From Albimonas pacifica (GTDB taxonomy: Bacteria; Pseudomonadota; Alphaproteobacteria; Rhodobacterales; Rhodobacteraceae): a DNA stretch of 64,000 nucleotides. Below, one piece after another: positions 25,235 to 32,365 of this stretch (position 1 is the first letter of the stretch; every line of letters begins with the position of its first letter). The DNA lies in the NCBI RefSeq assembly GCF_900113695.1, contig NZ_FOQH01000002.1, forward strand, positions 248,001 through 312,000, written 5' to 3'. Made by a program: the position numbers and the translations under genes. Below the pieces are notes generated by a model, which searched no databases, was not told the DNA's origin, and was given only the letters and a program-made list of their open reading frames with translations.

Positions 25235-25259
25235 CTGATCCTGCCCCGGTCTGGTGGAC
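25235..25259 (+). repeat. Left terminal inverted repeat of the IS3-family element
   Basis: 25 bases starting CTGATCCTGCCCCGG. They match the reverse complement of 26506-26530 with one mismatch. The element proper probably begins at the TG at 25236, as IS3-family ends are TG...CA. Confidence 0.85.
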
Positions 25260-25298
25260 ACCCGTGCTACGGCTTTCGAGCCAGGAGAGGAGTGTCCG

Positions 25299-25859
25299 AT
25301 GGAGACGAAGACGCGTCGCCATTTTCCGGAGAGCTTCAAGCGGCAGGCCGTCGAGCGTGTGCTCGACAGCGGTCTGCCGATCGTGCGCGTCGCCGAGGAG
25401 TTGGGTCTTCACGAGACGCTGCTGCGGCGCTGGATGAAGCAGCTCTCCGAACCGTCGCCGTCGCGGCAGCCCGCGACGCAGGTCCCGTCTCCGGTGGACC
25501 TCGCCGCGGAGAACGCGCGGCTGAAGTGGGACCTTTCGCGGGCGCAGATGGAGCGCGACATCCTAAAGAAAGCCGCGCTCATCTTCGGAGCGGCCAGCCG
25601 GCGAGGCGCCGGTTCGTCGATGAGCATCGCCGTCTCTGGCCGGTTCGCATGGCCTGCCGCGGTCCCGGCGTATCGCCCGGCGGCTGCTGCGCCTGGCGTC
25701 GGCGGCCGGAGAGCGGGCGCGCCTTCGCGAACTGCGCGCTGTTGGCCGAGATCCCGGCGATCCACGCCGAGAGCGGCGGGGCCTACGGGGCGCCGCGGGT
25801 GCACGCGTATCTGCGCGCCCACGGCGGGCGTGTCGGCCGCCACCGGATCGCGCGGCTGA
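25299..25859 (+). CDS. IS3-family transposase OrfA (helix-turn-helix), stop lost
   Basis: Starts METKTRRHFPESFKRQAVER with the IS3 OrfA helix-turn-helix (IVRVAEELGLHETLLRRWMK) and a leucine-zipper-like segment AAENARLKWDLSRAQMERD, ending the true protein at about ERDILKKAALIFGAASR (near 25599). In intact relatives a stop codon overlapping the OrfB start follows here. In this copy CGATGA-like sequence has become CGGCGA, so translation reads on into about 85 meaningless residues until 25859. OrfA would normally bind the IS ends and pair with OrfB through programmed frameshifting. Confidence 0.8.
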   Translation: METKTRRHFPESFKRQAVERVLDSGLPIVRVAEELGLHETLLRRWMKQLSEPSPSRQPATQVPSPVDLAAENARLKWDLSRAQMERDILKKAALIFGAASRRGAGSSMSIAVSGRFAWPAAVPAYRPAAAAPGVGGRRAGAPSRTARCWPRSRRSTPRAAGPTGRRGCTRICAPTAGVSAATGSRG

Positions 25860-26501
25860 TGCGCCGGGCCGGTCTGCGCGGCCTGGCGGCGATCCCGCGC
25901 CGGCTGCGCACGAAGGACAGCCGGCACGGTCACCCGATCGCACCGAACAGGCTTCGACGGAACTTCACGGCGACGGGGCCGAACCAGGTCCGGCTCGCCG
26001 ACCTGACCTGCGTCCGCACCGGCGAAGGCTGGCGTTCGCGGGGCTTGCGCGGCCCCGCACGGGCCACGGTCCCCGCTCACCTCGGCGTTGATCGACATGC
26101 ATAACCGCAAGGTCGTCGGCTGGGCGGTCCGCGAGACCTTGCACGCCGACATCGCGCTCGAGGCGTGGGAAATGGCCATCAAGCGGCAGCGACCCGCGCC
26201 AAGGCTCGTCCATCACAGCGACAGGGGCGTCCAATGTGCAGCGGATGCCTACCGCCAAGCCCTTGCCGCCGCATGGATCACGCCGTCTATGAGCCGGAAG
26301 GGGAACTGCCTCGACAATGCGCCAATGGAGAGCTTCTTCCACACCCTGAAGGTCGAGCGCGTCCACCACCGCGTCTACGCCACCCGCGGCGAGGCGCGTC
26401 GCGACCTCTTCGCCTACATCGAGGGCTTCTGCAATTCCCGGCGGCTGCATTCCGGGACAGGCTACCGTTCGCCGGCCGACATGGAGCGCATGGCGGCCTG
26501 A
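25600..26501 (+). pseudogene. IS3-family transposase OrfB (DDE integrase core), frame-shifted
   Basis: The first part, in the frame of 25610-26032, reads RFVDEHRRLWPVRMACRGPG through the first catalytic Asp in LADLT and stops making sense after TGEGW. The second part, in another frame from about 26085, resumes at ALIDMHNRKVVGWAVRE with the second Asp in HHSDRGVQ and the Glu in NAPMESFFHTLKVE, ending at 26501. About 40 extra bases separate the two parts. All three DDE residues exist but cannot be made in one protein. The start ATG is also missing, and GYYAW of relatives is GCCAW here. Confidence 0.82.
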
Positions 26502-27048: not shown

Positions 27049-27138
27049 TGGCGGAGAGAGCGGGATTCGAACCCGCGATAGAGTTGCCCCTATACACGCT
27101 TTCCAGGCGTGCGCCTTCGACCACTCGGCCACCTCTCC
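27049..27138 (-). tRNA. tRNA-Ser (anticodon GGA)
   Basis: 90 nt on the minus strand, from GGAGAGGTGGCCGAGTGGTC at 27138 to CCGCCA at 27049. The acceptor stem GGAGAGG pairs with TCTCTCC, the anticodon arm ACGCCTGGAAAGCGT gives GGA, a long variable arm follows as expected for serine, and the T-arm is GCGGGTTCGAATCCCGC. CCA is encoded. The 3' end faces the integrase fragment, so this gene served as the attachment site. Confidence 0.95.
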
Positions 27139-27255: not shown

Positions 27256-27753
27256 TCAGGGCGCGTCGCGGGCCGCCAGGAAGCCGCGCAGGTCCACCAC
27301 GCGCCTGGCGTTCAGCGAGACGTAGACGAAGCCGAGGTTGGTGCGCTCGGCGATCATCTCGCCCGGGTAGGGCAGGTAGCTGAGCTCGCGCGAGCCGAAG
27401 GAGGGGCTGGCGGCGCCCACCTGCCACTCGGTCGTCAGGGTCACGTCGACCAGCTTCAGGGGCGGGCCGCCGGCCTCGTCGGCGATCTCCAGGGGGACGC
27501 CGGCGATGCGAAGGTAGGCGGCCTTGTCGCGGGCCTCGCGGAAGCCGTCGACGAACTGGGCGGTCAGGACCTGCAGCTCGGCCGCGCGGTCGCCCGGGTC
27601 CATGTGGCTGTGCAGGTGGTCGGCGTGGGCGTGGTTGTGGCCGTGACCATGGGGGTGGTCATGCCCGTGGGAATGCCCGTGCCCGTGCCCGAGCCCGTGC
27701 CCATGCCGATGCCCATGTCCGTGCTCATGGTCGTGCATGTGGTCGTGGGGCAT
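27256..27753 (-). CDS. Histidine-rich protein, candidate nickel-handling partner of the ureohydrolase
   Basis: A 165-residue protein. Its first 51 residues contain 23 histidines in HxH repeats with Gly and Asp, a classic Ni/Zn-binding tail like those of nickel metallochaperones. The remaining 110 residues form a small domain with no family I recognise (TAQFVDGFREARDKAAYLRI, then ERTNLGFVYVSLNARRVVDL). The gene starts one base after the ureohydrolase stop (TGA-A-ATG), so the two are tightly coupled. Known guanidine hydrolases need nickel and dedicated chaperones; this protein may store or deliver nickel here (inference). There is no signal peptide, so it is cytoplasmic. It could instead buffer another metal. 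Confidence 0.8.
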   Translation of the reverse strand: MPHDHMHDHEHGHGHRHGHGLGHGHGHSHGHDHPHGHGHNHAHADHLHSHMDPGDRAAELQVLTAQFVDGFREARDKAAYLRIAGVPLEIADEAGGPPLKLVDVTLTTEWQVGAASPSFGSRELSYLPYPGEMIAERTNLGFVYVSLNARRVVDLRGFLAARDAP

Positions 27754-27754
27754 T

Positions 27755-29014
27755 TCAGCGGCTCCCGGCGGGGCGGCCCCAGCGCTTGCCGTGGGTGGCC
27801 TCGGACCACTCGCCCATCGGCAGGCTGACGGGCTTGTCGATGTGCTTCTTGTGGGCGCCCAGCTTGCCGCCCGCGACCAGCGAGCCCAGCACGTCCACGA
27901 TCACCCGCGTGCCCATCAGCGCGGTGATGTCGGAGGTGTCGTAGGGGGGCGAGACCTCGACCAGCTCCATGCCGCAGATGCCTTCGGCGGCGACCTTGGA
28001 GGCCAGGGCGAGGGCCTCGCGCGGCAGGAACCCGCCGGGCTCGGGCCAGCCGGTGCCGGGGACGAAGCCGCAGTCGATGCTGTCGATGTCGAAGGACATG
28101 TAGACCATGTCGACGCCGTCCCAGGCCATCTCCAGCGCCATCTCGGCGGTGCGGTCGACGCCCATCCGCTCCATGTCGGACATGGTGATGATGTTGGTCT
28201 CGCGCTCGCGGGCGACCTTCACCGCCTCGCGCGGGACCTGCCAGCCGCCGATGCCGACCTGGACGAGGTTCTTCGCCGGCACGTTGGGCAGGTTGGTCGA
28301 GTGGAACCAGGGCGTGGTGTGCATCCGCTCGTCCAGGTCCTTCTCCTGGATGTCGGCGTGGCGGTCGAAGTGGACGATGCCGATCTTCTTCGAGGTGCAC
28401 TCGGCGATGCCGCGCACGCAGGGGAAGCCGATGGAGTGGTCGCCGCCGATCATGATCGGCAGAGAGCCGGAGGAGAACACGTGGGAGACGGCGCGGCTGA
28501 TCTGGTCGAAGGATTTCTCGAGGTTGGCCGGGATGGTGAACACGTCGCCCGCGTCGCAGAGCGTCATCTGCTCGCGCAGGTCGATGGCCATCTCGTAGTT
28601 GTAGGGCGTGTAGAGGGCGGAGATTTTTCGAACGCCCTGGGGGCCGAAGCGCGTCCCCGGTCGATACGTCGTGCCGCCGTCGAAGGGGATGCCCAGCACC
28701 GTCGCGTCATAGTTGCCGACTTCGGTCACATCCTCGGTGTAGGGGGCCTTCAGGAAGGTGTTGATGCCGGCGTAGTGGGGCAGCTCGCCGCGGGCGAAGG
28801 TGGGGATCGAGCGGTCCTCGATCGAATCCGCGCCGGTCAGGCCCATGCGCAGGGCCCAGGCCTTCTCCTTCTCCCATTCCGTGCCGGGGATGTCGGCCTC
28901 GGCCCGCATCGCCTTCCAGCCCTGCAGCTTGGAGAGGTCGGGGTGGTGCATCCGGCGACGGTCGGGGAGCAGGGCTGCGGAGATGCGGCGGCGGGGTTCA
29001 GACCTGGGGAACAT
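27755..29014 (-). CDS. Ureohydrolase-family metalloenzyme, candidate guanidine hydrolase
   Basis: A 419-residue arginase/agmatinase-superfamily enzyme, about 100 residues longer than agmatinases because of N- and C-terminal extensions. ATG 29014 has GAGG seven bases upstream; Met22 is a second possible start. Metal ligands are intact: His193 in GGDHS, Asp217/His219/Asp221 in DRHAD, and Asp309/Asp311 in DIDSID. Arg218 replaces the Ala of the usual DAHxD. Other notable stretches are MHTTPWFHSTN (231-241), GGWQVPR and VPGTGWPEPGG. The operon has a guanidine-I riboswitch and an ABC importer, so the probable reaction is guanidine plus water to urea and ammonia, as in the Ni-dependent cyanobacterial guanidine hydrolases (established family; assignment here inferred). 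Agmatinase is the alternative. Confidence 0.85.
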   Translation of the reverse strand: MFPRSEPRRRISAALLPDRRRMHHPDLSKLQGWKAMRAEADIPGTEWEKEKAWALRMGLTGADSIEDRSIPTFARGELPHYAGINTFLKAPYTEDVTEVGNYDATVLGIPFDGGTTYRPGTRFGPQGVRKISALYTPYNYEMAIDLREQMTLCDAGDVFTIPANLEKSFDQISRAVSHVFSSGSLPIMIGGDHSIGFPCVRGIAECTSKKIGIVHFDRHADIQEKDLDERMHTTPWFHSTNLPNVPAKNLVQVGIGGWQVPREAVKVARERETNIITMSDMERMGVDRTAEMALEMAWDGVDMVYMSFDIDSIDCGFVPGTGWPEPGGFLPREALALASKVAAEGICGMELVEVSPPYDTSDITALMGTRVIVDVLGSLVAGGKLGAHKKHIDKPVSLPMGEWSEATHGKRWGRPAGSR

Positions 29015-29804
29015 GGTCGTCCTCTTGGGCTTGCGAGGTCGGGGTCTCGGCGAAAGGGCGGTTCTGGAAGGGGATGCCGCCGTCCCGCGCGTCGAAGTCG
29101 TAGGTGATCGTGGCGCCCCAGGCCTCGGGCTCGATGGGGTCCCAGCGGGGCTTGTCGAAGACCAGGACACGGTCGCCGAGCTTGAAGGCTTCTTCGAGGT
29201 CGTGGCTGACCATGAACACCGTCATGTTGGTCTCGGCGCGCAGGTCCTGGAGGAAGGCGTGCATGGCGAGGCGCGTTCCGGGGTCGAGCGCGCCGAAGGG
29301 CTCGTCCAGCAGCAGCACGCGGGGCCGGCCGGCGAGCGCCTGGGCGATGGCGAGGCGCTGCTGCATGCCGCCGGAGAGCGAGGCGGGGTACTGGTCGGCG
29401 ACATGGGCGAGGCCGATGCGTTCCAGGGCGGCGTCGGCGCGTTTCGCGGCCTCGCGCCGGCGGGCGCCGAAGAAGCGGGGGAGGAGGCCCGCGCGCTCGC
29501 CGCCCAGCTCCTCGGCCGCGATCAGGTTGCCGCGGACCGTCATGTGGGGGAACACCGAGTAGCGCTGGAAGACCACGCCGCGGTCGCGGTCGGGCTCCTG
29601 CGCGGGGGGGCGGCCCTCGATGGAGATCGACCCGCGGGTCGGGCGCTCCTGCGCCAGCAGCAGGCGCAGGAAGGTGGACTTGCCGCAGCCCGAGGCGCCG
29701 ACGATGGAGACGAATTCGCCCTCGGCGACCTCCAGGTTCACGCGCTCCAGGATCGGGCGTTTGCCGTAGGACTGGAAGATGTCGGAGACCGTGACGAAAC
29801 TCAT
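28998..29804 (-). CDS. ABC transporter ATPase, NitT/TauT-type (candidate guanidine importer)
   Basis: A 268-residue nucleotide-binding subunit: Walker A GASGCGKST near residue 36, the signature LSGGMQQRLAIAQALAG, Walker B LLLDEPFGALDPGTR and the switch histidine in SHDLEEAF. It starts inside the permease stop (four-base ATGA overlap), and its last 17 bases overlap the ureohydrolase gene. The C-terminal tail after VLVFDKPRWDPIEP is longer than in SsuB/TauB proteins. It powers uptake of the operon's substrate across the inner membrane. Confidence 0.92.
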   Translation of the reverse strand: MSFVTVSDIFQSYGKRPILERVNLEVAEGEFVSIVGASGCGKSTFLRLLLAQERPTRGSISIEGRPPAQEPDRDRGVVFQRYSVFPHMTVRGNLIAAEELGGERAGLLPRFFGARRREAAKRADAALERIGLAHVADQYPASLSGGMQQRLAIAQALAGRPRVLLLDEPFGALDPGTRLAMHAFLQDLRAETNMTVFMVSHDLEEAFKLGDRVLVFDKPRWDPIEPEAWGATITYDFDARDGGIPFQNRPFAETPTSQAQEDDHVPQV

Positions 29805-30613
29805 GTGGCGGGCCCCGCCCAGGGGAAGGCGCGCCGATGGAGCTGGCGCAGGCCGAGGTCCATCAGGAAGGCGAGCAGGGTGATCCAGATCACGTAGGGG
29901 ATGATCACGTCCATCGCGAAATAGCGGCGCACGAGGAAGATGCGGTAGCCCAGCCCCTCGGTCGAGGCGATGGCCTCGGCGGCGATCAGGAACAGCCAGG
30001 CGGGGCCCAGCGACAGGCGCAGGGCGCCGATCAGGCGGGGCAGGACCTGGGGCAGGGCGACCCGGGTGATTATGGCCCAGGTCGAGGCGCCCAGCGTCTG
30101 GGCCTTCACGATCATCTCCTCGGGGATCTCGGCGGTGCGCTGGGCGATGTCGCGGATCAGCACCGGGGCGATGCCGATGGCGATCAGCGCGACCTTGGAG
30201 ACCTCGCCGAGGCCGAAGACGATGAACAGGATCGGCAGGATCGCCAGCGGCGGGATCAGCGAGATCACCGAGACGAAGGGCGCGAGCGTCGTGCGGATGC
30301 CGGGGATCAGCCCGATCAGCAGGCCGAAGACCAGGCCCATGGACGCCGATATCAAGGCCCCCTCCGCCAGCCGGATCAGGGAGGCGGAGGTGTCGAGCCA
30401 CAGCAGCACGTCGCCCGAGCGGCGGTCGGCCTCGGTCGCGAGGCTGAGCGCGGTGTCGAGGATCTGCGCGGGCGCGGGCAGCAGCTTGTCGGCCGGGTTG
30501 GCGGCGCGGCGCAGGTCGGAGGCGATCACGTAACCCAGCACCGCCAGCGCGAAGGGCAGGGCGGCGAGGCCGAAGGCGACGAGGCGCCCGGGGCGTCGGT
30601 TGATCCAGCGCAT
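29801..30613 (-). CDS. ABC transporter permease, NitT/TauT-type (candidate guanidine importer)
   Basis: A 270-residue membrane protein with six predicted helices and the cytoplasmic loop QTLGASTWAIITRVALPQVL that contacts the ATPase. The start is taken at ATG 30613, seven bases after GGAGG. An ATG six bases earlier (30619) is too close to that site. The gap of about 300 bases to the binding-protein gene upstream is GC-rich, with no other gene. Same family as SsuC/TauC. Confidence 0.9.
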   Translation of the reverse strand: MRWINRRPGRLVAFGLAALPFALAVLGYVIASDLRRAANPADKLLPAPAQILDTALSLATEADRRSGDVLLWLDTSASLIRLAEGALISASMGLVFGLLIGLIPGIRTTLAPFVSVISLIPPLAILPILFIVFGLGEVSKVALIAIGIAPVLIRDIAQRTAEIPEEMIVKAQTLGASTWAIITRVALPQVLPRLIGALRLSLGPAWLFLIAAEAIASTEGLGYRIFLVRRYFAMDVIIPYVIWITLLAFLMDLGLRQLHRRAFPWAGPAT

Positions 30614-30916
30614 GCTCATGCCTCCCCCCGAGGGGACGCGGAGCGGCCGGCGCAAGGCGCCCCATGCGGCGCTCGCGCCTCGCCGCGCAGGGCCGCGCGT
30701 GCGGCAGGCGGCGGGAAGAGGCCCCGGGTCAGGCCCGGGGCGCCCCGGGGCGGGCGTCGTCGCGGCGTCCGCAGGTCGGTCGCCGGCGGGGGCGCCTCGG
30801 CGCAGGGCGCGCGCGTGGCGCCGCGGTTTCCGGAACCGGCTGGCATGGGCCTCTCCCGCTGCGAGGGATCGAGAGGGGGGAGGCCGGGCGCGGCCTCCCC
30901 GTCGTCGCTGGCGTCG

Positions 30917-32017
30917 TCAGAGGAGGCCGTCGGCCGCCATCTTCATGTACTCGACCGAGTAGCGGAACTTCACGTTCCCCTCGTCGCCGGTGACCTGGCC
31001 CGAGGGATAGGCCACGCCGACGAAGTCGGGCGAGGGCGCGCCGGTCCCCAGGATGCCCTTGTCGAACAGGAACTGGGCCACGTAGGTCATGGTCTCGGCG
31101 AGCTTGGGGTCCTCGACGAAGGCCACCGCCTCGGACGGCTCGTAGAACATCGCGGTCGAGTCGAGCTGCGCCTCGTAGCCGGCCTGGTCGGTGCCCGAGG
31201 CCTCGCCCATCGCGGCGCGGGCGGCGGCGCCCTCCTCGGTGTCGGAGGACATCAACGCCATCGTCTCGTACCACGCGCCCACGACCGCCTTGCCGAAGGC
31301 GGGGTTGGCCTCGAGCACTTCGGTGTTCACCGCCAGCAGGTCGATGATCTCGCCGGGGATGTCGGAGCTGTCGGCGACGTTCACCGCGTCGCCCATCTCG
31401 AGGATCGTCGAGACCAGCGGATTCCAGGTCACCACCGCCTCGACGTCCGAGGTCTGCCAGGCGGCGACCATGTCGGCGTCGGAGGTGTTGATCACCGCGC
31501 CCAGGTCCCGCTCGGCCAGCCCCGCCTTCTCCAGCGCGCGGGCGAGCAGGTAGTGGGAGACCGAAAGTTCCACCAGGTTCACCGGCTTGCCGGCGAGGTC
31601 CTCGACCGTGGCGCCCTCGCCCTTCACCAGGATCGCGTCGTTGCCGTTGGAATAGTCGCCCACGATCAGCGCGGTGGTGTCCACGCCGCCGCCCGCGGGG
31701 ATCGAGAGCGTGTCCATGTTGGTGGCCGAGACGCCGTCGAAGGCGCCGGCGGTATATTGGTTGATCGACTCGATGTAGTCGTTGATCTGCACGATCTCGA
31801 CGGTGATGCCGTATTTCTCGGCCCACTTGTCCATGATCCCGTGGTCGGCCATGTAGCCCCACGGCATCCAGCCCACGTAGATCGACCAGGCGATCGAGAA
31901 CTCGGTCTTCGCCTGCGCCAGCGCCGGAGTTCCGGCGGAGAGGGCCAGCACGCCGGCCGCGGCGAGCGCGAGGGCCTTGGATCCCCTGCGCGGGGCGGTC
32001 TTGCGGATAAGGGTCAT
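30917..32017 (-). CDS. ABC transporter substrate-binding protein, NitT/TauT-type (candidate guanidine binding)
   Basis: A 366-residue secreted protein. The signal peptide runs through VLALSAGTPALAQA (about residue 36). The mature part begins KTEFSIAWSIYVGWMPWGYM, then DHGIMDKWAEKYGI, the usual opening of NitT/TauT-type binding proteins, followed by QYTAGAFDGVSATNMDTL at the pocket. Aromatic residues around YVGWMPWGY could cage a small planar cation such as guanidinium by cation-pi contact (inference). AAGGA lies seven bases before the ATG. First gene after the guanidine-I riboswitch, so its translation or transcription is probably switched on by guanidine. Confidence 0.88.
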   Translation of the reverse strand: MTLIRKTAPRRGSKALALAAAGVLALSAGTPALAQAKTEFSIAWSIYVGWMPWGYMADHGIMDKWAEKYGITVEIVQINDYIESINQYTAGAFDGVSATNMDTLSIPAGGGVDTTALIVGDYSNGNDAILVKGEGATVEDLAGKPVNLVELSVSHYLLARALEKAGLAERDLGAVINTSDADMVAAWQTSDVEAVVTWNPLVSTILEMGDAVNVADSSDIPGEIIDLLAVNTEVLEANPAFGKAVVGAWYETMALMSSDTEEGAAARAAMGEASGTDQAGYEAQLDSTAMFYEPSEAVAFVEDPKLAETMTYVAQFLFDKGILGTGAPSPDFVGVAYPSGQVTGDEGNVKFRYSVEYMKMAADGLL

Positions 32018-32104: not shown

Positions 32105-32232
32105 TGGCCTCCCGGGCTTTTCTCCCGCCGTGTACCCCCGCCGCTGCCGCGGAGGGGCGACGCCTCTCGGACCAGCGCCGCCCCGCTCCCGCCCGGAGGG
32201 GACGGGGAGCGCGGCGGACGGAACCCTAGGCG
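32105..32232 (-). ncRNA. Guanidine-I riboswitch (ykkC class) aptamer
   Basis: On the minus strand the conserved blocks of the guanidine-I motif occur in order: CTAGGGTTC (32229-32221) with CCG, a long GC helix, CTGGTCCGAGAG (block 32173-32164), a second variable helix, then ACGGCGGGAGAAAAGCCCGG with GAG (32134-32109). This matches the ykkC consensus (CUAGGGUUCCG; GGUCCGAGAG; ACGG.GGGA.AAAAGCCCGGGAG) essentially base for base. The class binds free guanidinium and turns on genes for guanidine export or breakdown (established knowledge). Here it precedes an importer-ureohydrolase operon by about 90 bases. Confidence 0.93.
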
Positions 32233-32365
32233 TCCTGCGCAAGGACCAGAATGCAGGCGACGTGCCATGCGGGCAAGGCGAAGGTTTCCCGGTCCTGGGC
32301 GCCTTTGGAACGGGCGCGGCGGCGCCCGGCGCCCGGAAATGCGGCGCCCGGGCGCCCAGGAATGC

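Follow-up and report, generated by a model that had tools for sequence, protein, structure and literature searches.

Guanidine hydrolase (GdmH) depends on nickel, and in Synechocystis HypA/HypB-type accessory proteins load it with the metal (PMC12186494, PMC11399263). These proteins, GhaA and GhaB, are a zinc/nickel protein and a GTPase; their genes stand together with those of GdmH and of a guanidine ABC transporter, and a guanidine-I riboswitch governs the set. A comparable set of genes forms the metformin hydrolase operon, which brings together HypA, HypB, two ureohydrolases, and the permease HupE. For the guanidinase of comammox bacteria, no nickel-loading protein was found, and incomplete metal loading was suspected (PMC11410670).

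We analyzed a stretch of 64,000 nucleotides from Albimonas pacifica (the window), which encodes a guanidine hydrolase and, directly behind it, a small histidine-rich protein whose database entries are labelled "hypothetical protein." We found no earlier report of this protein in the open-access literature. We propose, with a probability of roughly 0.6, that it is a nickel-delivery protein dedicated to GdmH and that it belongs to an undescribed family. The features of the locus are:

27256..27753, minus strand: His-rich GdmH-linked protein, 165 amino acids, with an ATG start; directly 3' of gdmH
27601..27753, minus strand: N-terminal tail of this protein (residues 1-51, with 23 histidines); the predicted mature N-terminus is Pro-His-Asp
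27256..27600, minus strand: conserved domain of this protein (residues 52-165); no relative in Pfam, NCBIfam, PHROGs, or PDB
27755..29014, minus strand: gdmH, Ni-dependent guanidine hydrolase (elsewhere annotated as agmatinase family protein), from PDB matches and ligand motifs
28998..29804, minus strand: ABC transporter ATPase, 268 amino acids (PF00005); overlaps the start of gdmH
29801..30619, minus strand: ABC transporter permease of the TauC/NtrB type (PF00528 and NCBIfam matches)
30917..32017, minus strand: substrate-binding protein (TIGR03427, 513.9 bits against a cut-off of 333.9), with its ATG at 32017
32107..32240, minus strand: guanidine-I riboswitch aptamer (RF00442, 53.8 bits, E = 3e-7; this is under the Rfam gathering score of 63)

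Judging by its sequence, the ureohydrolase upstream of the His-rich gene is GdmH. Its top PDB matches are GdmH from Synechocystis (7esr/7oi1, 559 bits, E = 6e-167), followed by the guanidinase of Nitrospira inopinata (9fek, 544 bits, E = 3e-162), while the other ureohydrolases in PDB score far lower (174 bits for proclavaminate amidinohydrolase and 168 bits for guanidinobutyrase). The metal-ligand motifs GGDHS, DRHxD, and SFDxD are retained and the ligand motifs are invariant. The transporter ATPase gene overlaps both of its neighbors (gdmH and the permease gene), and the riboswitch sits 90 nucleotides upstream of the first gene of the operon; in the relatives' loci, a guanidine-I riboswitch scored above the gathering score in 7 of 8 cases. 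Because the ABC transporter, GdmH, and the riboswitch occur together, this is an operon for the import and hydrolysis of guanidine. TIGR03427 is named "putative urea ABC transporter substrate-binding protein"; given the riboswitch and GdmH, the substrate of this binding protein is probably guanidine. Urease, which was present in all 31 carriers that we tested, takes guanidine breakdown the rest of the way to ammonia. A tRNA gene (27052-27138, minus strand; Rfam RF00005) lies directly downstream of the His-rich gene, and the remains of an IS3-type insertion sequence (pieces of orfA and orfB, recognized by eye only) lie just past the 3' end of the operon, at 25254-26501.

The His-rich gene starts one base past the stop codon of the ureohydrolase (the junction is TGA-A-ATG). 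This spacing and the 23 histidines within 51 residues had been pointed out in the original prediction, and the ORF confirms both. Residues 1-51 also contain 20 HxH motifs, and elsewhere in the window, across all six frames, no stretch of 51 residues has more than 12 histidines. There are none at all across residues 52-165 (114 amino acids). The translation of this gene is not in doubt: aligned Rhodobacterales proteins share 54-87% identity with it, with the tail free to vary.

Scanning GTDB genomes, we took the best 80 GdmH loci, which come from Hyphomicrobiales, Rhodospirillales, Roseibium, and other groups; in 80 of these 80 alphaproteobacterial loci (one of which, L061, is interrupted by undetermined bases), the His-rich gene is directly behind gdmH. 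A phylum-level sample of 398 genomes contained GdmH in 7, and the His-rich family was present in the same 7. At the level of the order, 22 of 198 genomes have GdmH and the same 22 have the family, always adjacent and on the same strand; a genome lacking GdmH gave one further weak match, to a remnant of 29 residues. At the level of the class, the family is present in 13 of 385 genomes, and the two that have no adjacent GdmH contain a truncated locus and a remnant. Outside the context of GdmH, the family appears, within these loci and the phylum, order, and class samples, only as broken remnants. Because related genomes are not independent, shuffle-type probabilities would overstate the association; the pattern is still exclusive. 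The expectation that this protein would be a one-to-one partner of the metalloenzyme was thus borne out at every locus (80/80) and in every carrier of GdmH at both levels (22/22 and 7/7). By co-occurrence, the gene is tied to one nickel enzyme, as a dedicated nickel metallochaperone should be. Furthermore, distances between the conserved domains track those between the GdmH proteins (r = 0.88 across 36 loci).

The broken remnants, in which GdmH has been lost from the genome or from the locus, are L039 (genome G110), L172 and L174 (G727), and L171 and L173 (G945); the G945 case may be a deletion or a misassembly that fused the gene for the binding protein to the domain. We also saw four actinobacterial GdmH loci (L127-L130) with neither the His-rich family nor HypA/HypB nearby. 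In Rubrobacter, the gdmH genes are followed by a permease gene, and urease genes are close by in one instance. Since neither GdmH at these four loci nor, according to the literature, the comammox guanidinase has a local chaperone, a helper is perhaps not an absolute requirement.

Residues 52-165 have no match in Pfam, NCBIfam, PHROGs, or the sequences in PDB. Scanning 73 aligned members singly gave no NCBIfam match and, in Pfam, just one match to DUF1236 (E = 0.064), and the profile of these members had no match in PDB. AlphaFold2 was run on two alignments, each headed by a different subfamily but with most rows in common; both models are confident (pLDDT of 87.0 and 86.2), and the predicted secondary structure is nearly alike in both: two helices, then strands, and a last helix. 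With Foldseek, neither subfamily model had a PDB fold match at E ≤ 0.001. The original prediction's statement that a remainder of about 110 residues fits no family therefore survives profile and structure searches with the 114 residues.

The known nickel chaperones were considered individually. The His-rich protein does not match the HypA family (PF01155), and the zinc site of HypA, with its two CxxC motifs, is absent: CxxC occurs in 1 of 109 members (L085, whose start codon is uncertain), and only 17 of the 109 contain any cysteine. Profiles for HypB and G3E GTPases (TIGR00073 and PF02492) do not match it either, and the P-loop pattern is found in a single member of the 109 (L041), by chance. 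With no conserved P-loop or CxxC, the protein has no mechanism in common with HypB or with the zinc site of HypA. Pfam and NCBIfam profiles for the UreE domains gave no match, and no UreE fold is among the Foldseek matches shown for the two subfamily models. We rejected membership in the UreE-like, HypA-like, and HypB-like groups because there was neither a profile match nor a fold match.

The conserved core of the family is the domain and not the tail. In 109 members, the number of histidines in the N-terminal tail ranges from 0 to 28, with a median of 17. L115 has no histidines at its N-terminus and 11 at its C-terminus, in L004 both ends bear a tail, and L171 has a C-terminal tail. Three members from the class-level sample (L168, L169, and L170) keep the domain beside GdmH with at most 5 histidines at the N-terminus. 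In the stretches that we read, these tail-poor members have no adjoining gene for HypA, HypB, or a separate His-rich protein; the exception, in L177, is a weak match resembling hypB at a distance of about 6 kb, and this could be a UreG. Since the domain persists with almost no histidine in some members, the tail is not the essential part, and since those members have no neighboring HypA/HypB, the part that carries the argument for nickel is dispensable. On this point the original prediction needs correcting, as it does on HypA/HypB (below); in outline, its interpretation holds. UreE offers a parallel, as its tail is absent in some species and is dispensable in Klebsiella (PMC7055735).

The predicted N-terminus gives a second lead, also in tail-poor members. 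At the predicted mature N-terminus, 101 of 114 members have histidine at position 2 (X-His), and the commonest N-termini are PHD, MHR, and MHD; the count depends on start codons picked by a rule, and histidine is frequent in the tails in any case (44% over residues 4-25). In HypA, the nickel site is formed by the N-terminal amine and His2 (PMC5557546). The resemblance to HypA's MHE site is one of sequence, and marks X-His as a candidate nickel site.

The neighborhood of the gene also points to nickel. A nickel permease of the HupE/UreJ family (PF04955) is encoded in 29 of the 80 loci, and in 23 of these it is within 2.5 kb 3' of the His-rich gene; we confirmed six of these proteins with PF04955, from both arrangements and including the one from S. 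fredii NGR234. HupE is absent from the other 51 loci and from the window's own operon. The same permease family accompanies metformin hydrolase (PMC11399263). In Ancylobacter and its relatives (L043-L045 and L047-L053), HupE, where found, is before gdmH, and a gene resembling 5-aminolevulinate synthase comes after the His-rich gene.

HypA/HypB were found in none of the 80 loci by blastp with this genome's own copies. The original prediction had remarked on the lack of these genes: this is correct for the window, which encodes neither, and does not extend to the genome, as hypA and hypB lie on another contig (C48, 28612-29819) beside a response-regulator gene, probably in a hydrogenase cluster. 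Judged by the family cut-offs, HypA is missing from 19 of 27 Rhodobacteraceae genomes that carry the family, and 18 of these lack HypB as well. HypA/HypB encoded elsewhere could serve GdmH in Albimonas; for the 18 of 27 carriers without both, this is ruled out.

Set against the described systems, the His-rich protein is most like GhaA/GhaB in its genetic context and in its expected job, the nickel loading of GdmH, but it is a single protein that is unrelated to that pair and has no conserved P-loop or CxxC. Most members recall HypA in the His2 predicted at the mature N-terminus, but there is neither a PF01155 match nor a Zn(Cys)4 site. Like UreE, it would be a small chaperone serving one enzyme, and its His-rich tail differs among species and may be dispensable; unlike UreE, its tail is mostly N-terminal, and it has no Pfam match and no significant fold match in PDB. 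Its composition is of the Ni-binding, His-rich type known from Hpn and Hpn-like proteins of Helicobacter, but Hpn is not tied to the operon of one enzyme and is not known to have a large conserved domain. In the metformin hydrolase operon, too, a nickel ureohydrolase is encoded together with HupE and a nickel helper, but there the helpers are HypA/HypB.

The evidence that the His-rich protein handles nickel is circumstantial, and the main rival, which we consider unlikely, is that it partners GdmH in structure, assembly, or regulation, for example as a small second subunit or a folding factor, whose domain binds GdmH and whose tail is secondary. Much of what we observed would fit such a partner: the linkage is strictly one-to-one, conservation lies in the domain, which is retained even in members that have almost lost the tail, its distances follow those of GdmH, and metformin hydrolase is a ureohydrolase that requires a second subunit (PMC11399263). 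However, GdmH from Nitrospira is an active homohexamer, like the Synechocystis enzyme, with no such partner, and the linkage to HupE and the placement of tails at the other end of some members also speak against this reading.

His-rich tails bind zinc, cobalt, and copper besides nickel, and this lack of selectivity would allow the protein to handle another metal (manganese, cobalt, or zinc) for this branch of GdmH, as might the discovery of one nickel and one manganese in the N. inopinata guanidinase. This seems very improbable, because HupE/UreJ is, by established annotation, a nickel permease family and because the alphaproteobacterial GdmH proteins are close in sequence to nickel-dependent GdmH enzymes. 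The poly-His composition and the wide variation in tail length could instead reflect a protective nickel store or buffer, like Hpn of Helicobacter, that hands nothing over to GdmH; a store would hardly be expected to appear only with GdmH, to have a conserved domain of 114 residues, or to be encoded in an operon under a guanidine riboswitch, and we think this improbable too. Finally, a tail made of simple repeats might suggest a coincidental neighbor or low-complexity sequence with no function. We rejected a chance His repeat, as the conservation of the domain and its exact co-occurrence with GdmH across the class already refute coincidence, and we give this idea almost no credence.

If the protein does deliver nickel to GdmH, the process might run as follows. 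When guanidine is present, the riboswitch would permit transcription of the operon; the ABC transporter would import guanidine while the cell makes GdmH and, alongside it, the His-rich protein. The tail would gather Ni2+, supplied in some species by the HupE/UreJ permease from the same locus, and the conserved domain would dock on apo-GdmH and help nickel into the dinuclear site, with the transfer perhaps passing through the N-terminal X-His site. GdmH would then yield urea and ammonium, and urease would finish the job. We infer the binding of nickel, the docking on GdmH, the delivery, and the role of the N-terminus. In Alphaproteobacteria, the His-rich protein would fill the role that the unrelated GhaA/GhaB pair has in Synechocystis. 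More tentatively, and with less than even confidence, we suggest that this unnamed family has a new fold and loads nickel into GdmH alone, without a GTPase partner, so that the domain would be a GdmH-specific module for docking and insertion, transfer would take place at the N-terminal X-His (a convergence with HypA), and the tail of histidines would serve as an optional reservoir.

If it is true that the His-rich protein delivers nickel to GdmH, a protein now annotated as "hypothetical" would gain a name, and a nickel-delivery family unrelated to HypA, HypB, or UreE would be added to those described. It would also be a practical partner to co-express for obtaining fully loaded GdmH. GdmH is carried by many marine and root-associated Alphaproteobacteria, and this protein would explain how the alphaproteobacterial guanidine hydrolases that have no helpers of the HypA/HypB type are supplied with nickel.
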